Source of the DNA: Actinomycetota bacterium
GTDB taxonomy: Bacteria > Actinomycetota > Nitriliruptoria > Nitriliruptorales > JAHWKO01
Direction: 5' to 3'
Length of the DNA: 64,000 nt
Assembly (NCBI GenBank): GCA_019347675.1
Contig: JAHWKW010000017.1
Coordinates: 1 to 64,000 of the forward strand
The notes beneath the pieces are model-generated. The model ran no database searches. It had not been told where the DNA came from and worked only from the letters and a program-made list of their open reading frames with translations. Both the position numbers and the translations under genes were made by a program. This document shows, piece after piece, positions 5,354 through 48,771 of this stretch (the stretch's first letter is position 1; every line of letters starts with the position of its first letter).

Positions 5354-5700
5354 GGCTCTTCTGACGTTTCCGTGGGTTGAAGTCACAGGGTTGTGAGTAG
5401 AACCGCCGTCTCCTGCCGACGTTGCCGGCTGCTTCCGGCTGATCACGTGGAAGGAGACCCTCGGGATATGGCGGCGGTTTCTGGGGTTGGGCGAGCGCAC
5501 CACACTCGAGCGGGTGGACTTCGACGAGGACGACGATGTGGTGGTCGCCCAGGTGCGACCAAAGTCGCACGTGGAAGCGGCGCTGCGGGAGGTGTTGGCG
5601 CCGGTCACCGGGCTACGACGGCGGTGAGGGTCGGCGTCCCTGTGCGCCGACCCGTTTCACGTCGTCGCTCGGGCCACCGATGCGCTCGAAATCCCTTGAG
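5354..5700 (+). mobile_element. Decayed ISL3-family insertion sequence remnant
   Basis: The left end GGCTCTTCTGACGTTTCC at 5354 resembles the terminal inverted repeat of ISL3-family elements. Downstream, the start of an ISL3 transposase can be read in pieces. WRRFLGLGERTTLERVDFDE is followed by VVVAQVRPKS in one frame; after a frameshift near 5570 comes the zinc-binding part CGRCWRRSPGYDGGEGRR; after an apparent internal deletion come CADPFHVVARATDALE and a stop near 5698. The last piece corresponds to the DPFHV motif of the catalytic core. No right end is visible. The element is inactive and was assigned only from motif memory. Confidence 0.65.
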
Positions 5701-14467: not shown

Positions 14468-15877
14468 GTGCCACACGAACCGGCGCCTCAGCGCACGATG
14501 CCGGATCCGGCGGCGCTCCCCCGGCCGTGGATCGGCTCGTACCCGCCCGGTGTGCCGCCGCGATACCCCATCCCCGACGTTGCGGTGACACGACTGCTCG
14601 ACGACGCGGCACGGGACTTCCCCAACGTCACCGCGACGTGGTTCTGGGGCGCCACGCTCAGCTACGCCGAACTGCTCAGGCGCGCCGACCGCCTGGCGGC
14701 CGCGTTCCTCGCGCTCGACGTCACTCCCGGGTCACGCGTCGGCGTGGTTCTGCCCGACGTCCCCGCCCGGCCGATCGTGCTGTTCGCGACCTGGCGTGTC
14801 GGAGCGGTCGCCGTGCCCGTCGACGCCGACGCATCCGAGGCGGATCTTCACCACGATCTCGACTGCACCGGATGCGTCGCCGCGGTGTGCCTGTCGGCGG
14901 TGGTCCCACGTGTGAACGCTGTCCGTGGCCGTCTTCCGGCGCTGCGGCACGTCGTCGCGACGGGACTCGAGGACTGGTTGCCGTTCCCCCGGGACCGGCT
15001 GTTCCCGATGACCGGCCGGCGCAGCGGGCAGTACTACAGGCTCCGACCCGACGACGACGTCGAGGGGCTCACTGCGCTGGTGGAGCGGCACCGGCGGGTG
15101 GCGGGCCAGGTGGTCGTCGCTCCAGACGACCCGGCCGCCATCGTCCACGCGGAAGGGCCGGGACGCGCACACCGCGCCGTGATGCTCAGCCACCGCAACC
15201 TGCTCGCCAGCGCTCTCCAGGTCCGGCTGTGGATCCCTGATATCCAGTCCGGCCGGGAACGCATCGTCGTGGCCGGCACGGTCCCCGGGGCGGGCGGCGT
15301 CACGGTGGGGGCACTCACCGCCACGTTGACGGCCGCCACGCTGGTGTTGGCCCCTGCCGACGGTGAGCCGTTGCGCGCCACGGTGGAACGGACGCGGCCG
15401 ACCATCCTCGTCGGGTGCCCGGCCGCGTTCGGGCACCTGGCCCAGACCGGCGCACGTGGGCTTGACGCTGCCCGGGTGTGCCTGGTCCTCGGGGCGCTGA
15501 CGTCGGATCTGGTCGGCTGGTTGCGGGAGCACAGCGGGGCGCGGCTGCGAGCGGCGTACGGGCCGGGCAGGGGGCCCATGACCCACGCCAACCCCGTCTA
15601 CGGTCCTCCCGTCGGCGGCAGCATCGGCTTGCCGATGACCGAGACCGTGGCGGCGGTGGTCGACGCCGACGACCCGACCCGCGTCCTGCCGCCCGGTTCG
15701 CTCGGCGAGCTGATCGTGCACGGCCCGCAGATCCCTGGCGGTTACTGGCGCCAGCCCGGTCCCCTGGCCCACCGCCTTCACGACGGGTGGTTGCGCACGG
15801 GCGACCCGGCCACCATGGACAGCGACGGATGGTTCGTGGTGACCGACCAGCGGCGATGGGACAGGAGCGGGCAGTGA
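14468..15877 (+). CDS. Degenerate AMP-forming synthetase/ligase-like protein
   Basis: A 469-residue protein resembling the large N-terminal domain of acyl-CoA synthetases. The core is recognisable: DFPNVTATWFWGATLSYAEL near residue 50, VVLPDVPARPIVLFATWRVGAVAVPVD, HRAVMLSHRNLL, LGELIVHGPQIPGGYW and GWLRTGDPATMDSDGW. The P-loop that normally reads like Y-T-S-G-T-T-G-x-P-K-G is VHAEGPGRAHRAV, lacking the Ser/Thr/Gly run. The protein stops shortly after the A8 motif, so the mobile C-terminal domain with the catalytic Lys is missing. It is therefore probably not a normal ligase. It starts at GTG 14468 after GAGGAG. The stop overlaps the next gene by 4 bp. Confidence 0.75.
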   Translation: MPHEPAPQRTMPDPAALPRPWIGSYPPGVPPRYPIPDVAVTRLLDDAARDFPNVTATWFWGATLSYAELLRRADRLAAAFLALDVTPGSRVGVVLPDVPARPIVLFATWRVGAVAVPVDADASEADLHHDLDCTGCVAAVCLSAVVPRVNAVRGRLPALRHVVATGLEDWLPFPRDRLFPMTGRRSGQYYRLRPDDDVEGLTALVERHRRVAGQVVVAPDDPAAIVHAEGPGRAHRAVMLSHRNLLASALQVRLWIPDIQSGRERIVVAGTVPGAGGVTVGALTATLTAATLVLAPADGEPLRATVERTRPTILVGCPAAFGHLAQTGARGLDAARVCLVLGALTSDLVGWLREHSGARLRAAYGPGRGPMTHANPVYGPPVGGSIGLPMTETVAAVVDADDPTRVLPPGSLGELIVHGPQIPGGYWRQPGPLAHRLHDGWLRTGDPATMDSDGWFVVTDQRRWDRSGQ

Positions 15878-39497: not shown

Positions 39498-39581
39498 GGG
39501 CGAGTGGCGGAATTGGCAGACGCGCACGGTTCAGGTCCGTGTCCCCGTAAGGGGGTGGAGGTTCAAGTCCTCTCTCGCCCA
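39498..39581 (+). tRNA. tRNA-Leu(CAG)
   Basis: Class II cloverleaf: acceptor GGGCGAG pairs with CTCGCCC, anticodon stem-loop CACGG-TTCAGGT-CCGTG gives CAG, a long variable arm (TCCCCGTAAGGGGGTG region) and T arm GGTTCAAGTCC. The discriminator is A. The encoded 3' end reads ACC and then T, so CCA is not fully encoded. It is the insertion target of the downstream element, whose attL restores the 3' part of the gene. Confidence 0.97.
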
Positions 39582-39582
39582 C
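39524..39582 (+). repeat. attL: 59-bp repeat inside tRNA-Leu
   Basis: Starts GCACGGTTCAGG and ends TCTCTCGCCCAC, from the anticodon stem to the tRNA 3' end. The same 59 bp recur identically at 47680-47738 and with one T-to-C change at 48713-48771. An integrase gene lies 75 bases downstream. Confidence 0.92.
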
Positions 39583-39612
39583 CTATCCTGACCTGCGGAA
39601 ACACCAAAAGCG

Positions 39613-39643
39613 AGAGCCCCCGGTCTACGCCGGGGGCTCTTTT
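39613..39643. terminator. Intrinsic terminator after tRNA-Leu / integrase
   Basis: AGAGCCCCCGG (39613-39623) pairs with CCGGGGGCTCT (39630-39640), loop TCTACG, then TTT (plus strand). It lies between attL and the convergent integrase gene and can end both transcripts. Confidence 0.85.
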
Positions 39644-39656
39644 GGTCACGGTTTGG

Positions 39657-40820
39657 TCACGAAACGCCGAGGATCGCTGCGGCGGCCACCTCCGCGGCCG
39701 ACTCGTCGTCGCCAACGAACACATGCGCGTAGACGTCGAGCGTGATCGCGACGCTGGCGTGCCCGAGCCGCTTCGACACGACGTGCGGCGACACCCCGGC
39801 TCGCAGGGCGGCCGTCGCGTAGCTGTGCCGCAGGCCGTGGACGCCGATCTCGGGCAGGCCGAGCGCGCGGCAGTGACGCAGGAACCACGTCGAGGCCCGG
39901 TCGGGGTGGATCGGACGGCCGTCCTCCCAGCAGAACACGAGCCCCCGGTCGGGGCGGGCTGACAACCCCTCCGCTAACCGCTCCGCGAGTTGACCCTTGC
40001 GGTGCCCGCGGAGGACCGCCACCGTCGAGGTGTCGAGCGCGATCGTCCGTTCGGCCGAGCCGGTCTTGCCGTCGGTGGACCACACCGGACGTTTGTCGGC
40101 CACAGTGACAGTCTGTGCGACTCGCAGCCGTCCGCCGTCGAGGTCGAGATCGGACCAGCGCAGTCCGAGGGCCTCGCCTCGGCGCAGGCCAGTCGTGGCG
40201 ATTAGGTACCACAGCGCGTACAGCCGGTCGCCCTGGACGTGGGCGAGGAACGTGCGGACCTGCTCGGCCGGCCATGCCTTGTCTCGGGCTGCCTTCGAGC
40301 GTGTCGCTGTGCGGGACGGCGGATGCGCGAGGTCGGCCACGTTGCGGACGACGTGGCCCCGTTCGACGGCGACCTGCAGCGCCCGCCGCAGCATCGTGTG
40401 GACGTGCCTCACGCTTTTCGGGGCGAGCGGCCCGCCGTCGCGCCGCCCCGACCGTTCCAGGTCCCGGTACAGCGCGTCGATGTGCTCGGCGGTGAGCGCC
40501 TGCAGCTTGACGCCCCCGAGGCGGGGGATCGCGTACGCCTCCGCGCACGTGCGGTAGTTCTCCAGCGTGGTGGGTTTCACGGCGACGCCGGCGAGCCAGG
40601 CACGCAGGTAGTCGGCCAGTGTCTGCGGGGAGTGGTCGACGTGGCGGCCCTCGTCGGCAGCGGCTAGCGCCTTGCGTAGCTCAGCCTGTGCGTCGCGTCG
40701 GGTGGCGAATCCTCGACGTTTGGCCTGCCGCCGCCTCCCGTCCGCACCGGGCGGCAGGTCGTACACAACCTGCCACCGTCGGCCCCGCTTCGTGTCGTAC
40801 GACCCGACCGAACCCCTCAT
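39657..40820 (-). CDS. int: Tyrosine recombinase (phage integrase)
   Basis: A 387-residue site-specific recombinase. Residues about 1-60 are an AP2-like arm-binding region ([20 protein letters not shown]), about 65-170 the SAM-like core-binding domain ([12 protein letters not shown]), and the rest the catalytic domain. Arg I is in [15 protein letters not shown], the Lys region is in KTGSAERTI, His-x-x-Arg in [10 protein letters not shown], His in [13 protein letters not shown] and the nucleophile Tyr in DVYAHVF. It would integrate the element at attB in tRNA-Leu and excise it with Xis. ATG 40820. Its 3' end lies close to attL, as is usual. Confidence 0.95.
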
Positions 40821-41644
40821 CGTTTCCGCTCCTTCTTGCGACGTCGGTAGTTGCGCTGCGCTTGAGCGCGGGCGCAGCCCTTCGAGCAGTACATGACCCC
40901 GGTCGTGCGGTGCTGGCCCTGCGCGGCTCGGCCGCGCTGCCGGACGAACACCCGCCCGCACGTCTCGTTCGCGCAGACGTGGGTGGTCGCGTTCTCGGCG
41001 ACGAGGTTCGCGAGCTGGAGCGCCGCAGCGGCGTACACGTTCGGCAGGCGTATGCCGGTATCCGGGTCGTCGGCCAGCCGCACATGGACGTGGAACGGCG
41101 CCAGTGCCGCGTTCAGGAACGACACCCACCGCCCCCAAGAGGCGTCACCCGAGGACGGCGGGGAGAGGCCGACCTCGCCCCAGGCGGCTGCGGGTCCTTT
41201 GCCCTGCGTGGCGAGCATCCAGTGGCGTGCGAGCGCCTGCATCGCACGAGCGTGGATCGCGGCGGCCTCGACCTGCACGAGCAGCCCCGGGGCCTCCCCG
41301 AGCACTTCGACCGCGTAGACGTCGCGGACGGCGGTGAGCCCCCGGTACGGCCCGGACCCGGACGTCGTTTCACTCGCCGGCAGGAAGGCGAACGGGTCCT
41401 CGCCGAGCGTGGTCAGCGGCCCCCATCGCTGGCTGAAGGCGACGACCGCCTCCGGGTCGTTCGCGTCGAGATCGCGCAGCTCACGGAGAACGAACTCATC
41501 GGGCAGTTCGACCATGTCCACGAACGCCCCGTAGCGCAGCCACCCACCGTCGACGTGCTCGACGGCGATGCGTCGGAGGGGCGGCACCGGGACGGGGGAG
41601 CCCGGCCAGTGCGTGAGACGAAATCGTGACAGGCCGTCCGTCAT
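40817..41644 (-). CDS. CGNR-like zinc-finger protein coupled to integrase
   Basis: A 275-residue protein. The N-terminal two thirds are helical with no recognised fold ([12 protein letters not shown] near 140). The C-terminus has [16 protein letters not shown]..., then [20 protein letters not shown]: four Cys arranged as C-x4-C...C-x3-C with basic flanks, the pattern of CGNR-type zinc fingers thought to bind DNA. Its stop overlaps the integrase start by 4 bp, so the two are translationally linked. A regulator or accessory protein for recombination is likely. It is divergent from xis. Confidence 0.65.
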
Positions 41645-41729
41645 TCCATGCGCTCCCGGGGTGTACCGTTACGTCAGTTCGGGAAAGCGTACCACGCCCC
41701 CGGAACGAGCGGGACAGGAAGGACAGGAG

Positions 41730-41933
41730 ATGACGACACCGAACGACGAACGACTGACCTACACGGTCGAAGAAGTCGCGCAGCTGCTCGGCGTGAGTAG
41801 GAACGCCGCCTACGCCGCTGTGGGCGCAGGGTTCATCCCGAGCATCCGGGTGGGCCGACGGATCGTGATCCCCAAGGTTGCGCTCGAACGTCTTCTTGAG
41901 CAGTCCGCCGACTCGACAGTCGTGGGCGCGTGA
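41730..41933 (+). CDS. Excisionase / MerR-like helix-turn-helix protein
   Basis: A 67-residue protein: TYTVEEVAQLLGVSRNAAYAAV is a winged HTH, followed by GFIPSIRVGRRIVIPKVALERLL, the typical wing of excisionase-family DNA-binding proteins. It should bend DNA at att sites to direct excision and may repress the divergent integrase operon. ATG 41730 follows GGACAGGAG. The intergenic space (41645-41729) is where both promoters and operators must be. Confidence 0.88.
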   Translation: MTTPNDERLTYTVEEVAQLLGVSRNAAYAAVGAGFIPSIRVGRRIVIPKVALERLLEQSADSTVVGA

Positions 41934-41996
41934 GCGCCCCGCAACGCAGGACGGCCACCGCCTCGCCAGCAGTGGCCGCCCCGAGAAGGGACCTGC

Positions 41997-42266
41997 ATGT
42001 CCCCCACCACTACGAACCGTAGCAGGCCCTCAAGACGTGACCCCGCCGCGGATGCGGTCCGTCAGGTACTGCACGGCGACGACCTCGTGACGCTCGGCAT
42101 CCGCGCCGATGGGCCGCTCGCATGGGCCCCGGACCCCGAACCGGCACCGACCAGTGCGGTGGAACGGGGCCGGCTGCGGGTTCTTGCCCGGCGGCGCGCC
42201 CGAGCGATCGACCTCCACCGGCGCCACGTCACCCAGCTCGACCGCGAGCTTGAGGTGGCGGGATGA
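41997..42266 (+). CDS. Small hypothetical protein of the element
   Basis: An 89-residue basic protein, Arg-rich at its C-terminus (RLRVLARRRARAIDLHRRHV), which looks helical. No family was recognised. Its stop overlaps the next start (ATGA), making it the first of five coupled genes. A nucleic-acid-binding role is possible from charge alone. Confidence 0.55.
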   Translation: MSPTTTNRSRPSRRDPAADAVRQVLHGDDLVTLGIRADGPLAWAPDPEPAPTSAVERGRLRVLARRRARAIDLHRRHVTQLDRELEVAG

Positions 42267-44056
42267 GCGCCCGCGAGGTTTGTGCGGCGTGCGGCGGAAC
42301 CGGCGACGATTTCGACGGCAACCCGTGCCCCGCCTGCGGCGGTACCGGGGAGGTCCCGCAGGCGCCGGCACTGGTCGTGACGGCCGCCCCGCCGCTTCCT
42401 ACCCCACCCCCTGACGGCGAACGACCTCGCGCGGACGGCTGGGTGACCCCGGTACCGCTACGTCGGCGGCTGTCTCCACCGCCGTTCCCCGTCGACGTGT
42501 TCCCCGACTGGCTGGCGGCGATGGTGACCGCGACGGCGGAATTCACTCAGACCGACCCGGCCATGCCGGCGGCAGTCGCACTGTCGGTCCTCGCCGGCTG
42601 CGCGGGCGGGCGCCTTGAGGTCGAGGCCCGTCCCGGCTGGCGCGAACCGACCCACCTGTTCATCGCGACGGTCGCGCGCCCCGGCGAACGCAAAACGCCA
42701 GTGCAGCAGGCGCTGGTCCGGCCGCTGCGCGAAGCGGAGGACGCCCTCGTCGCGAAGGCTGCGCCGAAGGTCGCCGAGGCCGAGACGCGGCGCGAGATCG
42801 CCGCGAAGAACGCCGCGCAGGCCAAGGCTAAGGCTGCGAACGAGGACGGTCCCCGCCGCGACAAGCTGCAGGCCGAAGCGGTGTCCGCCGCACTGGCCGC
42901 CGAAGCCATAGACGTCCCGACCCTTCCCCGGCTCATCGCCGGGGACGTCACCCCCGAAGCGCTCGCGACCCTGATGTACGAGAACGCCGGCAAGGTCGCG
43001 CTCGTCGCCGACGAGGGCGGGATCTTCGACGTGCTCGCCGGTCGCTACTCCGCGATCCCCAACCTCGACGTGTTCCTCCAAGGGCACGCCGGCAGCCCGC
43101 TGCGGATCGACCGCAAAGGCCGGCCGCCCGAATACGTCCGCAAGCCTGCGCTCACGGTTGGGCTGATGGTCCAGCCGCAGGTGCTGCGCCAGGTCGGCGG
43201 CAACCTGACGTTCGCCGGCCGTGGACTGATCGCCAGGTTCCTGTTCGTGCTGCCGACCACGATGGTCGGCCGGCGCAGGGTCGACCCCGAACCCGTGCCC
43301 GAACAGGTCGCGCAAACGTACGGCCGCGTCGTTCGTGGCCTCGCGGAGACGCTGGCCGGGTGGACGGACCCGGCCGTCGTCACCCTGACCGGCGACGCGC
43401 AACGAGCGATGTTCGCGTTCGCGCAGGACGTCGAGGACCGGCTCGGACCCGGCGGTGACCTCGACCACGTCGCCGACTGGGCGGCCAAGCTCGTCGGCGC
43501 GGTCGTCCGGATCGCGGGGCTGCTGCACGTCGCCCGTCACCCTGACTCGTGTTGCAGGAGGCCGGTCGACGCGGACACGATGAACACCGCAGTTGACCTC
43601 GGCCGGGTGCTCACCGCCCACTACTTGTCGGCGGTCGATGAGATGGGCGCCAACCCCGAGGTCGACAAAGCCGAGTACGTGCTCGACGTGCTGCGGCGGA
43701 TGGGTCAGGACCGCCCCGCCGACCGCCCCGCCGCAGCGGACGGTCCGCTCACCGTCACCGTCCGTGACGTGTTCACCCGCGCGTCCCGCAGCCGCCTGGC
43801 GACCGTGGACGACCTCGCCCCCGCACTCGACCTACTGGAAGCCCACGGCTACGTCCGGCGGTTGCCCGCTCCCGATCGTTCCGGGCCGGGACGCCCCCCG
43901 TCTCCGAGCTACGAGGTCAACCCCCTAGCACTCGCCGCAGAAACCGCAGTATCCGCAGAATTAGGGGTAGGGCACGGTCCGGCAGGACCCGACAGCAATT
44001 CTGCAGGTATTGCGGGTATTGCGGCAGGGTCCAGAGGTGTCGGAGGTGCGCCGTGA
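42263..44056 (+). CDS. DUF3987-type replication protein with N-terminal DnaJ-like zinc motif
   Basis: A 597-residue protein. Residues 8-30 carry two C-x2-C-G-G-T-G modules (CAACGGTGD, CPACGGTGE), resembling half of a DnaJ zinc domain. A Pro linker leads to a DUF3987-like region from about 80 (FPVDVFPDWLAAMVTATAEFTQTD, FIATVARPGERKTPVQQAL, LVADEGGIFDVLAGRYS, GRGLIARFLFVLP). The Walker-A-like GERKT is in the usual DUF3987 position. Residues about 480-545 look like a winged helix. Such proteins replace or accompany primase/helicase in small mobile elements. It ends in an Ala/Gly-rich tail. Confidence 0.75.
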   Translation: MSAREVCAACGGTGDDFDGNPCPACGGTGEVPQAPALVVTAAPPLPTPPPDGERPRADGWVTPVPLRRRLSPPPFPVDVFPDWLAAMVTATAEFTQTDPAMPAAVALSVLAGCAGGRLEVEARPGWREPTHLFIATVARPGERKTPVQQALVRPLREAEDALVAKAAPKVAEAETRREIAAKNAAQAKAKAANEDGPRRDKLQAEAVSAALAAEAIDVPTLPRLIAGDVTPEALATLMYENAGKVALVADEGGIFDVLAGRYSAIPNLDVFLQGHAGSPLRIDRKGRPPEYVRKPALTVGLMVQPQVLRQVGGNLTFAGRGLIARFLFVLPTTMVGRRRVDPEPVPEQVAQTYGRVVRGLAETLAGWTDPAVVTLTGDAQRAMFAFAQDVEDRLGPGGDLDHVADWAAKLVGAVVRIAGLLHVARHPDSCCRRPVDADTMNTAVDLGRVLTAHYLSAVDEMGANPEVDKAEYVLDVLRRMGQDRPADRPAAADGPLTVTVRDVFTRASRSRLATVDDLAPALDLLEAHGYVRRLPAPDRSGPGRPPSPSYEVNPLALAAETAVSAELGVGHGPAGPDSNSAGIAGIAAGSRGVGGAP

Positions 44057-44547
44057 CAACGTGGGATGAACGGCTCGAAACCGCCCGCCGCGCGGTCGAC
44101 CTGCTCACCCGCCACGGCCCGATCGTCCCCACCCACGTCGCCGACCAGACGGACGCCGCAGCCGCCGAAGCGTTCGCCAGCTTCCGCCGGCTGGCCGGCC
44201 TCGCCCCCGACCTCACCCACCGTGTCCCGCGAGACGACGCCCGCGCGGCCCTGCTCGCTGCGTTCCTCGACTGCCGGGTCTGCCCCCACATCCGCGAGGA
44301 CGCCCCCGAAGCGCTGTACGTCCGCCTTCCCCTTCGCCGCGCGGATTGCGCCCGCTGCGTCCGCACGATCCGCCGGCCACCGCCCGACGAGGACGACCGC
44401 TGCGACCTGTGCGGCACCCGCGGCGTCGTCACGTTCCGGCCGATCGCGCTCCACATGGGGCCACTGCTGTTCACCGGGGACCTGTGCCGGGGCTGCGCCC
44501 GACTGGTCATCGCCGACCTCGATGACGACGGCGGAGGCGCAGCGTGA
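44053..44547 (+). CDS. Cys-rich hypothetical protein of the element
   Basis: A 164-residue protein. The N-terminal helical part is followed by several Cys pairs: DCRVCPHI, DCARCVRTI, DRCDLCGTRGV and DLCRGCARLV. The last two could form one treble-clef zinc site (C-x2-C...C-x2-C). GTG 44053 overlaps the previous stop. Possibly a DNA- or RNA-binding accessory protein; no family was recognised. Confidence 0.55.
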   Translation: MTTWDERLETARRAVDLLTRHGPIVPTHVADQTDAAAAEAFASFRRLAGLAPDLTHRVPRDDARAALLAAFLDCRVCPHIREDAPEALYVRLPLRRADCARCVRTIRRPPPDEDDRCDLCGTRGVVTFRPIALHMGPLLFTGDLCRGCARLVIADLDDDGGGAA

Positions 44548-44747
44548 CCGCCCTCGACGCCCTCCACGCCGAAGCCGCCGCCCTCACCGAGCAACTGGCC
44601 GCGCTGCGCCAAGCCAACGCGGACGGCCGCGTCCCGCACCACGCCGTCGCCGTGGCCGAATACTTGCTGCAGCAGTTGCACCGCAGCATTGCCCGCCTCG
44701 AAGCAGACGAGGACGAGACCGTCACCAGGACAGGAGACACCACATGA
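44544..44747 (+). CDS. Small helical hypothetical protein
   Basis: A 67-residue acidic protein that is predicted to be a helical hairpin or coiled coil (LHAEAAALTEQLAALRQAN, VAEYLLQQLHRSIARLEADE). It overlaps both neighbours by 4 bp, which supports it as real. The function is unknown. Confidence 0.5.
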   Translation: MTALDALHAEAAALTEQLAALRQANADGRVPHHAVAVAEYLLQQLHRSIARLEADEDETVTRTGDTT

Positions 44748-45205
44748 ACCGCCCCACCACCGCCACCGCTCTCGCACTCCGACACATGAACGACAAGGAA
44801 CTCCGCGTGCTCTACGTCGCGCTGGCCAAGACACTCGACCCCGACGGCGACACCGACCTCGCCGAGGCTGCGTGGCTTTGGACCAAAGCCCGTGAGCTGA
44901 CCGCCGAACTTCGCCGCCGACACCTCGCCCCGTTCGACATGACCACCCCACCCCAGGCCGACGAGACCCCCGACATCCTCACAGCCGACGACGCCCGCCG
45001 CCTCGCTCGCGAGTACCGCGACGTCGCCGCCGCGATGACGATGCGAGGTGACCTCCCCCACCTGCCCGACTGGTACTTGGCGGCGGCAGCCGAGCTCGAC
45101 CACCACGCCCGCCGACGCGCCAACGAGCTGAACCAGCTCGACAAGCTCGACGCGGACCAGGCCGACGACCACCCCGACGACGACCACCCCGACGACCAGG
45201 ACTAA
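44744..45205 (+). CDS. Hypothetical protein with acidic Asp/His tail
   Basis: A 153-residue helical protein. ATG 44744 overlaps the previous stop and follows CAGGAG. The C-terminus is a low-complexity acidic repeat (ADQADDHPDDDHPDDQD). It is the last gene of the coupled run before the leader region. No family was recognised. Confidence 0.5.
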   Translation: MNRPTTATALALRHMNDKELRVLYVALAKTLDPDGDTDLAEAAWLWTKARELTAELRRRHLAPFDMTTPPQADETPDILTADDARRLAREYRDVAAAMTMRGDLPHLPDWYLAAAAELDHHARRRANELNQLDKLDADQADDHPDDDHPDDQD

Positions 45206-45394
45206 GCCTCAACTACACCTGACGACACCGCAGCCACGAAGACCCCGCCTCACGGGGATGATCGCCCCCGCCCCGGCCCAACCCGGCTCGAAAAGTCTGG
45301 GTCCGACCCGCTCCTCCCCACCTGCGCCCCTCATTTCGATCGCGTACAAGCTGGGGCTTTGGTTGTGCGAGGTGCGCTTTTTGTGTGCGGGGTG

Positions 45395-45505
45395 CGCGCA
45401 CGCGCCTTTACGCCGATCTACCGCGGTGCAACGCCGGTTCACCGCCGTCCAACGCCCGTCTACCTCGGTCGAGGCCGGCTCATCGCGGTCTATCGCCGGT
45501 GTGGC
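45395..45505 (-). repeat. Four to five degenerate 20-22-bp tandem units
   Basis: Read on the minus strand, successive units are ACCGGCGATAGACCGCGATG, CCGGCCTCGACCGAGGTAGA, CGGGCGTTGGACGGCGGTGA, ACCGGCGTTGCACCGCGGTA and a partial TCGGCGTAAAGG. The shared pattern is about CCGGCGTTG-ACCGCGGTAGA. The spacing of two helical turns suits protein binding (iterons or an operator). Confidence 0.45.
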
Positions 45506-45536
45506 CGAGGCGGCGCGTTGAGGCGTGGTGGGACGC

Positions 45537-45564
45537 TTTACAGCGCCGGTTGAGACGGTATGGT
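45537..45564 (+). promoter_or_regulatory. Sigma70-type promoter for capsid gene
   Basis: TTTACA (45537-45542) and TATGGT (45559-45564), 16 bp apart. Each differs from consensus by one or two bases. It points at the capsid gene, giving a leader of about 65 bases that contains the terminator. Confidence 0.5.
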
Positions 45565-45593
45565 GCTCCGTAAGGCAAGCCGCGATGAGCACT

Positions 45594-45622
45594 CGCCGAC
45601 CCCGAGGGGGGTCGGCGTTTTT
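45594..45622 (+). terminator. Intrinsic terminator directly before capsid RBS
   Basis: CGCCGACCCC (45594-45603) pairs with GGGGTCGGCG (45608-45617), loop GAGG, followed by TTTTT (45618-45622). The AGGAGG of the capsid gene begins at 45626, so transcripts must read through this hairpin to make capsid. Confidence 0.85.
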
Positions 45623-45637
45623 GCGTAGGAGGACCCG

Positions 45638-46876
45638 ATGCCGACGTTCACCGAGCTGACCTCCGCGGTTCGCCGGGCCCACGCCGCGTACGACCAGGCC
45701 GTCGAGGCGGGCGCGTCGGCCGGCGACCTGGACCGGCTGGAACGTGACCTGCGTGACGCGGTCGCGGCCCGTGACGAGCGGCTCGCGGACGTGATGGATC
45801 ACCTGGAACGCGTCGATGACCCGCCGCCGGCTGGCGGGACAGGAGGCAGCATGGACAGCACCGTGGCGGACCGGGCGGTCCTCGACCGCGAACAGCGTGT
45901 CGCGGATTGGGTGGCGGGCCGCGGGGTCGCGCCCGACGACCAGCGCGACCTGAGCTTCGGACGGTGGCTGCGCGGCATCAGCACGGGCGACTGGCGGGAC
46001 GCCGAACGTGAACGTCGCGCGCTGTCCGAGGGGACCTTGGCGGGGGGCGGCTACACGGTGCCGACGGTGCTGTCGGCGGAGCTGATCGACAGGGCACGCA
46101 ACGTCGCTGCGGTGTTCCGGGCCGGCGCACGGACGGTGCCGATGGACTCACTGACCGTGAACATCGCGAGGGTGGCGGGCGACCCGACCGCGTCCTGGAA
46201 GGCCGAGAACGCGGTCATCACGGACAGTGACATGACCTTTGAGCAGGTCACGCTCAAGGCCAAGACCCTGGTGTCCCTGACGAAGGCGTCCCGGGAGCTG
46301 ATCGAGGACTCGATCAACGCCGAGGAGGCCCTGCGAGACGCGTTCGCCGCGCAGCTGGCGATCACGCTCGACAAGGCCGCACTGTTCGGCTCAGGGACGG
46401 ACCCGGAGCCGCGCGGTGTGAAGAACACGACGGGGGTTACCAAGATCTCGGCGGGCGCGAACGGCGGCATCATCACGTACGACCTGCTGGTCGACGTGGT
46501 CACGACCGGGTGGAACAGCAACGAGGCAACCGCAGGTGCGGTCATCCTCGCGCCCCGCACCGAGCGCGGCGTCCTGAAGCTGAAGGACGCGAACAACAAC
46601 CCGCTCACGCTGCCGCAGACGGTCGCCGACGTGCCCCGGTATGCGACGAACCAGGTTCCGGTGACCGAGACGCAGGGGACCGCGACGAACGCCTCCAGCG
46701 TGTTCGGGGGTGATTGGTCACAGATGCTCGTCGGGGTCCGTCACGGCCTTGAGATCGAGGTGCTCCGCGAGCGCTATGCGGACGCGTTCCAGCTCGGGTT
46801 CCTTGCGCACCTGCGCGCGGACGTCACGCTCGCCAGGCCGGCGGCGTTCACGGTTCTCGAAGGTGTCACCCCGTGA
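45638..46876 (+). CDS. HK97-fold phage major capsid protein
   Basis: A 412-residue protein. The N-terminal ~100 residues are helical and charged (VRRAHAAYDQAV, LERDLRDAVAARDERL), like the scaffold delta domain of HK97 gp5. The capsid domain begins near 135 (LSEGTLAGGGYTVPTVLSAEL) and has family features: TVNIARVAGDPTASWKAE, LVSLTKASRELIEDS, LDKAALFGSGTDPEPRG and LEIEVLRERYADAFQLGFLA near the end. It forms icosahedral heads. AGGAGG precedes ATG 45638. There is no protease gene nearby to remove the delta domain, which is unusual. Confidence 0.93.
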   Translation: MPTFTELTSAVRRAHAAYDQAVEAGASAGDLDRLERDLRDAVAARDERLADVMDHLERVDDPPPAGGTGGSMDSTVADRAVLDREQRVADWVAGRGVAPDDQRDLSFGRWLRGISTGDWRDAERERRALSEGTLAGGGYTVPTVLSAELIDRARNVAAVFRAGARTVPMDSLTVNIARVAGDPTASWKAENAVITDSDMTFEQVTLKAKTLVSLTKASRELIEDSINAEEALRDAFAAQLAITLDKAALFGSGTDPEPRGVKNTTGVTKISAGANGGIITYDLLVDVVTTGWNSNEATAGAVILAPRTERGVLKLKDANNNPLTLPQTVADVPRYATNQVPVTETQGTATNASSVFGGDWSQMLVGVRHGLEIEVLRERYADAFQLGFLAHLRADVTLARPAAFTVLEGVTP

Positions 46877-46947
46877 GATTGGCGGGGGACTGGTCGTTCG
46901 AGGGGCTGGTCCGGGAGGCGTGCGGCTACCCAAGCGAAGGAGAGGCA

Positions 46948-47166
46948 ATGGCGAAGAAGGCCGAGAAGGCACGGGTCACCGAGACCGAGGTCGGCGGGGT
47001 CGAACGGGTGGTGGCTGACGTGCCGCTGCTGGTGGAACGTCCCGACGTGGGCGACGGGGTGTTCACGTTCGTGGCGGCGGGCGACCCGATCCCCGCAGGG
47101 CTCGAGGGGTTCGCGCGGCGTGAGGCGGACGTCCCGGAGGAGCCGTCGACTCCGACCGTCGCCTGA
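46948..47166 (+). CDS. Small phage-type protein downstream of capsid
   Basis: A 72-residue protein. ATG 46948 is chosen because AAGGAGAGG lies just upstream; a GTG at 46873 overlapping the capsid stop (GTGA) is in frame and would add 25 residues. It has a Lys/Glu-rich start, then a beta-rich part (VVADVPLLVERPDVGDGVFTF) and an acidic Pro end. No family was recognised; the position matches small head-decoration or head-completion genes. Confidence 0.5.
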   Translation: MAKKAEKARVTETEVGGVERVVADVPLLVERPDVGDGVFTFVAAGDPIPAGLEGFARREADVPEEPSTPTVA

Positions 47167-47300
47167 CAGGCTCGGGGCGACCCGTCGCTGGCTAGGCGCG
47201 GGCGCCCCGGAAGGCGGGCGACCGTCGCGTTTTCACGGCCCTAGGGTTTCGCCTCCTCCGGGTCGTGGTCGCGGCGGCGTCCGCCCCACCACCCCGCGGT

Positions 47301-47513
47301 TCACTCGCTGTCGTCGTCGTGTGCGGCCGGCCGTCGTTTTCGCCGCCGCGCCGCCACGATCGCAACCACGTCCGGGTGCGCGGCCGGAAGGTGCGCCCTG
47401 AGCTTGTCGGCGGGGCCCCACCCGTCCGGGTCGTAGACGACCTCGCAGACGGGACACCCGGTCATCGGCCACGGCAGCTGCAGCTGGTCGCCGGAGGGTC
47501 GCGGCCGGGGCAT
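47301..47513 (-). CDS. Small C2H2-like zinc-finger protein
   Basis: A 70-residue protein: CPVCEVVYDPDGW followed by KLRAHLPAAHP gives a C-x2-C...H-x4-H pattern, then an Arg/Lys-rich stretch (AARRRKRRP) and an acidic tail. It is encoded near attR on the strand opposite to the capsid gene. Plausibly a DNA-binding regulator of the element. Confidence 0.5.
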   Translation of the reverse strand: MPRPRPSGDQLQLPWPMTGCPVCEVVYDPDGWGPADKLRAHLPAAHPDVVAIVAARRRKRRPAAHDDDSE

Positions 47514-47549
47514 GGTGCTAACCGTACCTGCCGTGCGTGGTCACGTCGC

Positions 47550-47629
47550 GGTCACGGTTTGGTCACGAACGGTGCGGAAACGCCTGGCAGTGGGCGGTAT
47601 CCGAAGGGACGACATCGGTGTGTTTCCGC
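47550..47629. promoter_or_regulatory. Putative integrase/Xis arm-type sites near attR
   Basis: The 20-mer GGTCACGGTTTGGTCACGAA at 47550-47569 is repeated exactly at 39644-39663 near attL. GCGGAAACGCC at 47574-47584 and an inverted GCGGAAACAC at 47620-47629 match GCGGAAACACC at 39595-39605. Direct repeats flanking both att sites are what arm-type integrase sites look like. Confidence 0.5.
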
Positions 47630-47679
47630 TGGTCAGCGGCACGGGGCGGTACAGGGTGGTAGTGGCCGGGACGCGCCTT

Positions 47680-47738
47680 GCACGGTTCAGGTCCGTGTCC
47701 CCGTAAGGGGGTGGAGGTTCAAGTCCTCTCTCGCCCAC
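47680..47738 (+). repeat. attR of the satellite element (second 59-bp copy)
   Basis: Identical over 59 bp to the 3' part of tRNA-Leu at 39524-39582. Bases on either side differ, so it is only the core and not a full tRNA gene. It also serves as the left boundary of the second, decayed element. Confidence 0.92.
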
Positions 47739-47940
47739 TTCATCGCTAGCGGGTCCTAGCTACCGGAATCCAAGCAGATAGCTCGATCCGCGACTCGCTG
47801 CACTCGGCTCGCTTCGCCCCCCTGTGGACCCGCTGTGGACCCGAAACGCGCTGCGCGGGCGCTTCATGACCGGCATCGTCCGGTTCCTGGCTGAGCGTTC
47901 CTTATGGTCCATGGTCCGCCCTCGAGCGAAAGGGTGGTCG

Positions 47941-48225
47941 GTGAGTCCTCGATGGGCGACCGTGGGTGGGGCTGGGCTGTACTTCTACGCCTCGGAACCA
48001 CATCAGCGCCCCCACGTCGATGTGGTCGGCCCCGACTGGAACGCCAAGATCGCCCTCGACACGTTCGAGGTCCTGGTTAGCTCCGGCAAGGTCCCGCCGA
48101 AGGTGATCCGGCGCACCGTGGAGCTCCTACGCGAGCACCAGGACGAGGCGATCGCCGCCTTCCACGCGACCGGAGAGCATCGCTTCCCAGGTACCCTCGA
48201 GTCCGGAGAGAACGACCGTGACTGA
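47941..48225 (+). CDS. DUF4160 domain protein
   Basis: A 94-residue protein. GAGLYFYASEPHQRPHVDVVG, then GPDWNAKIALDTFEV and PPKVIRRTVELLREHQDEAI, match DUF4160, a small family usually paired with DUF2442 in toxin-antitoxin-like or mobile loci. The start is taken as GTG 47941, behind AAAGGGTGG, which gives the family's usual length; the frame is open back to 47824. Its end overlaps the DUF2442 gene by 8 bp. Confidence 0.75.
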   Translation: MSPRWATVGGAGLYFYASEPHQRPHVDVVGPDWNAKIALDTFEVLVSSGKVPPKVIRRTVELLREHQDEAIAAFHATGEHRFPGTLESGENDRD

Positions 48226-48490
48226 CAACATCGAACCACTGATCCGCGTGACCGGCGTCAAGGTGCTGGCCCGCTACATCGTCGAGCTCACCTTCGAGGA
48301 CGGCAGCACCAAGGTCATCGACCTCGAACCGCACCTGTGGGGCGAGATGTTCGAACCGTTGGCCGAGGACTACGAACGGTTCCGTCAGGTCAGGGTCGAT
48401 GATGCAGCAGGGACCATCGTGTGGCCGAACGGAGCTGATCTCTCCCCGAGGATGCTGTACGCCGAGTCGAAGGCGGTCACTCCCGTCTGA
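48218..48490 (+). CDS. DUF2442 domain protein
   Basis: A 90-residue protein: RVTGVKVLARYIVELTFEDGSTKVIDLEPHLWGEMFEPL, then DYERFRQVRVDDAAGTIVWPNGADLSPRMLY, the full DUF2442 fold. The family is often adjacent to DUF4160, and the two may act as a pair. It starts at GTG 48218. The cargo location between two att copies suggests an addiction or defence role, but this is not demonstrated. Confidence 0.85.
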   Translation: MTDNIEPLIRVTGVKVLARYIVELTFEDGSTKVIDLEPHLWGEMFEPLAEDYERFRQVRVDDAAGTIVWPNGADLSPRMLYAESKAVTPV

Positions 48491-48507
48491 CCAAGCGGAG
48501 CCGAACG

Positions 48508-48678
48508 TCAGGTCCCGTAGATCGCGGCGGCGGCGCGGTCGGCGGCGGCCTGGTCGTCCTGCTCGAACACGTGGGCGTCGATCGACAGGGTGATGACCCC
48601 CGAGGAGTGACCCAGTCGCTTCGACACGACCTCAGGGGACACCCCGGCTCGCAGGGCGGCCGTGGCGTAGGTGTTCCG
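48508..48678 (-). pseudogene. C-terminal fragment of a second integrase, catalytic Tyr lost
   Basis: The fragment [20 protein letters not shown], then RLGHSSGVITLSIDAHVFEQ, is clearly homologous to residues about 330-387 of the intact integrase. It has the LGH motif, but the nucleophile is Asp (SIDAHVF) where the intact protein has Tyr (DVYAHVF), and the usual HxxR is RNTY. Everything upstream is missing; at 48679-48712 three copies of GAAACGCGCT-like decamers abut the third att site. Confidence 0.8.
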
Positions 48679-48712
48679 ACGGAACGCGCTGAAACGCGCT
48701 GAAACGCGCTGC

Positions 48713-48771
48713 GCACGGTTCAGGTCCGTGCCCCCGTAAGGGGGTGGAGGTTCAAGTCCTCTCTCGCCCAC
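48713..48771 (+). repeat. Third att copy
   Basis: 58 of 59 bases match attL and attR (one T-to-C change in the variable-arm region). It marks the right end of a second, 1.0-kb remnant element that shares its left att with the satellite's attR. Confidence 0.9.

Follow-up and report, generated by a model that had tools for sequence, protein, structure and literature searches.

An 8.2-kb element inserted in a tRNA-Leu(CAG) gene of an Actinomycetota bacterium (Nitriliruptoria) has clean ends, intact mobility and replication genes, and a gene for an HK97-fold major capsid protein (MCP) that is its only recognisable virion gene. The element lies in the window analysed here, a stretch of 64,000 nucleotides of contig JAHWKW010000017.1 (GenBank assembly GCA_019347675.1, hereafter G000: 3.49 Mb, 76 contigs, 97% complete, and the sole genome of its family examined). 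We propose, with slightly less than even confidence, that the element lives as an integrated, replicating satellite, providing the shell protein itself and taking the portal, packaging machinery and tail from a helper phage. This reading is based on the clean ends, the intact genes, the complete capsid fold and the lack of any other virion gene, on the recurrence of the same plan elsewhere, including a module under selection in five genomes, and on the compact head-module relatives and plasmid pCD630 described below.

The two 59-bp att cores (Table 1) are identical, with 0 mismatches at a spacing of 8,156 bp, for which chance occurrence is negligible. A 20-bp repeat is present just inside both ends (39644-39663 and 47550-47569), and the GGTCACG repeats located there resemble integrase arm sites. 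The genes for the integrase (int), the excisionase (xis), the DUF3987 protein and the capsid are intact, and the codon-position GC is coding-like in all called element genes (third-position GC 0.76-0.89). Plausible coding open reading frames (ORFs) of at least 280 aa are only int, DUF3987 and capsid; the others of this size overlap antisense to genes or have a poor codon-position GC. A small integrated element with its own int/xis and a replication gene and an incomplete set of virion genes corresponds to a satellite in the general sense.

Scans with Pfam, PHROGs and NCBIfam, which took in 10 of the 11 called element proteins (orf67 was left out), gave zero matches to portal, large or small terminase (TerL, TerS), protease, scaffold and tail families, and no portal vestige was found between orf97 and attR. 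An earlier note, made from the sequence alone, had described an 8.2-kb unit bounded by a 59-bp repeat in this tRNA gene, with intact int, xis, replication-type genes and HK97 capsid and without portal, terminase, protease or tail; the family matches, the coding GC and the repeat agree with it on all these points. The same scans yielded none of the profile matches that it had named as refuting, and its satellite-like reading, with the capsid as sole recognisable virion gene, is supported.

The capsid protein matches PF05065 over profile positions 1-279 of 280 (1e-41) and TIGR01554 with 187 bits. Its AlphaFold model from 45 related sequences has a predicted local distance difference test score (pLDDT) of 85 and a predicted template modelling score (pTM) of 0.74; with 11 sequences the pLDDT was 42. 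In the model, a disordered link joins an N-terminal two-helix (delta-like) domain to an HK97 body, and its best matches among solved folds (Foldseek) are the capsids of a gene transfer agent (GTA), D3 and HK97. Sixteen alignment columns are conserved to 90% or more among 44 relatives, and the window capsid has the consensus residue in each of them. By every test made on sequence and model, the predicted protein is intact. A strong Shine-Dalgarno sequence (AGGAGG) with an in-frame ATG at 45852 lies inside the gene and could yield a shorter product without the N-terminal helical domain.

Relatives with and without a head module

The relatives described here are a sample rather than a census, and IMG/VR, which picks contigs by viral genes, may under-sample capsid-only elements. 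The earlier note had suggested looking for the same gene order in related genomes, and the capsid-only plan was indeed found there. Two clear examples come from actinobacterial lineages other than that of the window: a 7.5-kb element in tRNA-Ala with an 85-nt end repeat at 88% (L016) and an 8.3-kb element in tRNA-Glu with a 51-bp perfect end repeat (L017). Both have arm-type repeats (at both ends in L016) and encode an integrase, replication proteins and a capsid protein; neither has a portal or terminase gene. Another locus, L015, combines a serine integrase with a capsid and a TerS-like gene (Terminase_7, 9e-5, below the cut-off) and is without portal, and seven more (L146, L157, L144, L147, L154-L156) have neither portal nor TerL. 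Five of these (L144, L147, L154-L156), from five genomes of one genus, share a syntenic module (Zn-protein, capsid, 58-aa and 141-aa proteins) at 60-84% identity, their serine integrases being only about 24-30% alike; the ratio of nonsynonymous to synonymous substitution rates (dN/dS) of the capsid is 0.12-0.20, which means purifying selection. Because a syntenic module is combined with dissimilar integrases and low dN/dS, it is not the product of random decay. The capsid-only plan is recurrent in this sample and, judging from substitution patterns, under selection in one genus; its recurrence in unrelated bacteria suggests a real phage-dependent way of life, not one decayed virus.

Several loci deserve separate mention. 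L157 is a 10.3-kb capsid-only element apparently inserted in the 3' end of a sigma-factor gene (5364-5401 / 15669-15706). The integrases of L157 and of the head-module element L014 share 63% identity. At L040 (980-7429), a serine integrase and a capsid that belongs to the window's clade abut, on the opposite strand, an unrelated phage portal (phrog_64) and major head protein (phrog_212), and this may possibly be a capsid-only element embedded in a helper. The compact integrase loci L124 and L140, in which the capsid is followed by tape-measure-like genes and no portal or terminase was seen in the stretch, were not counted as capsid-only because of these genes, and L020 and L042 were not informative as portal-less candidates because their contigs end at or near the capsid end. 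One genome (G194) has two near-identical compact terminase-portal-scaffold-capsid-connector elements (L120, L121) at different sites, without tail genes.

Beyond Actinomycetota, the window capsid finds its best-scoring match on pCD630 of Clostridioides difficile (L163, NC_008226; 33% identical, E 9e-33), which outscores every phage record among the matches listed; the best phage records listed there are 28-33% identical, with 5e-24 at most. This 7.9-kb plasmid carries an HK97 capsid, HNH and helicase, without portal, TerL or protease. An element similar to pCD-WTSI1, which has been grouped with pCD630-like plasmids (PMC6807378), is reported to occur in a particle-protected DNA fraction, as a variant without a recognised capsid gene (PMC10993401), and this may be taken as a hint, and only a hint. 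The "cryptic" plasmid pCD630 may itself be better seen as a satellite than as an ordinary plasmid.

The capsids closest to that of the window (43-52% identical) are on contigs of 4-12 kb (L014, L021, L034, L038 and others) that represent a second plan, in the order int - rep - capsid - (orf97-like) - portal - protease - HNH - TerL, with no tail genes seen. Such head-module elements are compact, about 10-11 kb, with L014 as an integrated example, and from their gene content they are already satellite-like. L038 and L034 have the look of circles, and we rejected them as complete; they are only near-complete, the joined portal ORF of L038 being about 110 aa short and the joined TerL ORF of L034 being out of frame. 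Protease calls are based on PHROGs, since a locally built "protease" profile drifted into capsids and was discarded; unlike the window element, L043 has a protease.

In a tree of 42 capsids, one group (support 100/99) unites the 12 head-module rows with two protease-capsid rows and excludes the window capsid, L015, L016 and L040, with the caveat that the capsid-only branches, being long, could have been drawn to the base. The approximately unbiased (AU) test rejected one clade of the window capsid with the head-module rows (p-AU 0.011), and one clade of the four capsid-only rows was not rejected (p=0.13). Because the window capsid is outside the head-module clade, a simple recent truncation of a head module is unlikely; having no portal vestige either, we rejected truncation as a simple account and kept it as a rival. 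The other outcome that the earlier note had named as refuting, a decayed remainder of a full prophage in sister strains, likewise did not appear, in so far as the capsid is not nested among elements with a full head module; G000 being the one genome of its family, this was judged from the tree. Two histories would fit: the head-module genes may have been lost several times long ago, or a single capsid-only lineage may later have gained portal, protease and TerL. Since the head-module order (capsid-portal-protease-TerL) is not the phage order (TerL-portal-protease-capsid, as in L012), it leans to the later gain.

Other features of the element and its site

The iterons, the promoter-like site and the hairpin are all between the replication operon and the capsid gene (Table 1). 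The hairpin, strong in the window and absent from close relatives, was rejected as a conserved terminator and given no weight. The second "tRNA-Leu" of ARAGORN (47654-47738) was also rejected as a real tRNA, being attR with an unrelated 5' half.

Beyond attR, a third att-core copy (58/59) is present at 48713-48771. The stretch between the two contains a DUF4160/DUF2442 pair and an integrase C-terminal fragment, which at the DNA level shares 74% identity with the 3' end of the window int; therefore the site holds two elements in tandem, one intact and one older relic. The relic, which extends to 48771, falls outside the range given in the earlier note. The DUF pair is possibly a toxin-antitoxin-like cargo.

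Table 1. Features of the element and its insertion site in the window
Feature	Position	Strand	Evidence or remark
tRNA-Leu(CAG), integration target, complete copy at left end	39498..39583	+	ARAGORN
attL core, 59-bp perfect direct repeat, 3' end of tRNA-Leu(CAG)	39524..39582	+	
Left arm-type repeats, GGTCACG x2 at 11-bp spacing	39643..39663	+	putative integrase-arm function
int, tyrosine integrase, 387 aa	39657..40820	-	PF00589 1e-23, PF14657, PF14659, phrog_1 3e-76
Putative regulator, 275 aa, C-terminal CGNR-like zinc motif, divergent from xis	40817..41644	-	weak PF11706, phrog_30403; role suggested by position
xis, excisionase-family helix-turn-helix (HTH)	41730..41933	+	TIGR01764 5e-11, PF12728 6e-15
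orf89	41997..42266	+	coding GC profile, no family match
DUF3987 replication helicase-type protein, 597 aa	42263..44056	+	PF13148 5e-110, phrog_2373 3e-67
orf164, cysteine-rich	44053..44547	+	ORF call, coding GC
orf67	44544..44747	+	ORF call, coding GC
orf153	44744..45205	+	no small-terminase match (Pfam, PHROGs)
Iteron-like array, 21-bp period, 4.4 copies; candidate replication origin	45410..45500	.	TRF score 75; putative function
Sigma-70-like promoter, weak	45537..45564	+	sole one in region vs 0.3 expected
Terminator-like hairpin, 10-bp stem + T5	45594..45617	+	20 nt before capsid
HK97-fold major capsid gene	45638..46876	+	PF05065, TIGR01554, AlphaFold model, Foldseek
orf97, small gene 3' of capsid, likely start 46948	46873..47166	+	homologues between capsid and portal in head-module relatives
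orf70, small Cys-containing protein	47301..47513	-	
Right arm-type repeats, GGTCACG x3 at 11-bp spacing	47538..47569	+	putative function
attR core, 59-bp repeat	47680..47738	+	
Relic of second element: DUF4160/DUF2442 pair, integrase C-terminal fragment, third att copy	47739..48771	.	

Explanations for a lone capsid gene

If the element is a satellite of the proposed kind, every helper-dependent step of its cycle is our inference, as follows. An infecting helper phage would trigger excision and replication; the MCP of the element would assemble element-specific, probably small, heads on the helper portal; the packaging motor of the helper, or another one, would fill them, and helper tails would complete the particles. 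The element would be a capsid-donating satellite stripped further than the capsid-forming phage-inducible chromosomal islands (cf-PICIs). The earlier note had offered helper supply of portal and packaging, and also interference (below), as candidate mechanisms, and both are plausible.

Several points weigh against this proposal. Assembly G000 contains no HK97-type helper prophage as judged by a six-frame whole-genome search for portals of HK97 type (PF04860) or SPP1 type (PF05133) and by a search for a second PF05065 capsid gene, none of which was found; TerL matches to phrog_2 in G000 were rejected, since they are at background level and outside the element, and a control search likewise gives matches in 13 of 14 genomes. 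With no tailed prophage of these kinds in the element or the assembly, any helper would therefore need to enter from elsewhere. The element has no recognisable packaging-redirection gene (TerS, Rpp-like) and is also without a close relative, the selection on the capsid having been measured only in the other genus. Fits between MCP and portal and between MCP and protease are usually specific, and how a divergent MCP uses the portal and protease of a helper is not obvious.

One of the two main rivals, which we consider rather unlikely, is that the element is a remnant, namely a decayed prophage or a head-module satellite that lost portal, protease and terminase and retains the capsid as a passenger. 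In the head-module relatives, the capsid is followed immediately on its 3' side by an orf97-like gene, portal, protease and TerL, so that a single 3' deletion would suffice; moreover, the same site does hold a true relic, and the long end branches of capsid-only capsids could mean relaxed selection. Decay would be marked by broken or truncated genes, a lost att site or nesting among complete relatives; the relic (47739-48771) fits this description and the element does not, since all its genes, arm sites and att sites are intact, with a complete capsid fold; the position of the capsid outside the head-module clade, the lack of a portal vestige and the presence of the plan in several lineages, selected in one genus, also argue against decay.

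The other main rival, about as unlikely in our view, is interference, in which the lone capsid co-assembles with, or starves, the capsid assembly of an infecting phage, and thereby protects the host or favours packaging of the element into helper shells, as an analogue of redirection by Sid, CpmAB or TcaP. An assembly poison or size-redirector would need just such a capsid, unaccompanied by portal, protease and packaging genes; the capsid is under purifying selection in capsid-only elements, and there are established cases of satellites that disturb or reshape the capsids of their helpers (PMC10945586, PMC12409344). Co-assembly, however, needs a close likeness to the helper MCP, which the phage identities given above do not offer; known redirectors are scaffold-type and not complete MCPs with an N-terminal domain and HK97 fold, and no convincing defence-library match was obtained among the scanned element genes.

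Reuse of the capsid as an encapsulin-like compartment, or in a small portal-free particle, would agree with the lack of an encoded portal or motor and with pCD630-type plasmids, which have a capsid on a replicon without them, but is very improbable, because the capsid has PF05065/TIGR01554 matches, a prohead-like N-terminal helical domain and no cargo enzyme beside it, and the best 50 fold matches listed are capsids of DNA phages, GTAs and satellites, with no encapsulins.

A broader claim, possible and still doubtful, is that capsid-only elements are a distinct, widespread satellite class of Actinomycetota and Bacillota, including pCD630, that spread in heads assembled from the MCP they encode, with portal and motor borrowed; head-module elements may descend from them by the later 3' gain of portal, protease and TerL, which the tree and the non-phage gene order allow. 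The capsid-encoding satellites known so far come with a complete head-and-packaging module. If a lone MCP gene is enough for an element to persist, either a divergent shell must be able to work with the portal and motor of a helper, or the shell protein acts as a weapon, and either would revise the view of specificity in head assembly. Islands with a capsid and no portal that have been classed as prophage remnants may be functional, and the selected capsid in five genomes and the pCD630 plan make the question testable in cultivable organisms.

Comparison with known systems

phiRv1 and phiRv2 carry a prohead protease besides their capsid gene. Together with phiBN42_1, they share with the window element a length of 8-11 kb between att repeats, an integrase (with xis and primase/helicase), a capsid and no reported portal or tail. 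phiBN42_1 is 8.4 kb long and has int, xis, primase, protease and capsid in tRNA-Arg; it and phiMmcs_2 have been described as prophage-like elements (PMC3986857). Elements of this type have the protease by the capsid, whereas the window element has none (Pfam, PHROGs) and belongs to a distant actinobacterial class. In the sections of PMC10654092 drawn on here, Mycobacterium candidate PICIs are defined as integrase plus major capsid protein and are tied to phiRv1/2; the window element, with a tyrosine integrase in tRNA, helicase and capsid, falls within this definition. The set is loose, since it takes in terminase and scaffold carriers, and these sections single out no capsid-alone members and show no transfer.

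The cf-PICIs, as summarised in PMC10690885, encode MCP, protease, portal, connectors, TerS, TerL and HNH; an HK97-type MCP of its own is common to them and the window element, which has none of the other components. It also has no AlpA/Stl-type regulator, TerS or redirection genes of classical PICIs, only an xis-type HTH and a CGNR-like protein. The Streptomyces satellites MulchRoom and MiniFlayer are likewise actinobacterial satellites with their own capsid gene and, unlike the window element, carry terminases, portal, scaffold and adaptor, with no replicase (PMC10690885). Head-module elements share the capsid family, the combination of int, rep and capsid and often an orf97-like gene, and differ by portal, protease, HNH and TerL. 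pCD630-like plasmids are alike in a single HK97 capsid gene plus helicase without portal, TerL or protease, and differ as free plasmids of Bacillota with HNH and no integrase.

The earlier note's term "undescribed system" was too strong, in view of phiRv1/phiRv2, phiBN42_1, the candidate PICIs and pCD630; what does stand is that, within the open-licence PMC literature, we found no paper that singles out capsid-alone elements or presents the capsid-alone plan as a variant that recurs and is under selection. The kind of element is already known from phiRv1/2, phiBN42_1 and the mycobacterial candidate PICIs, and the capsid-alone variant is the new part.

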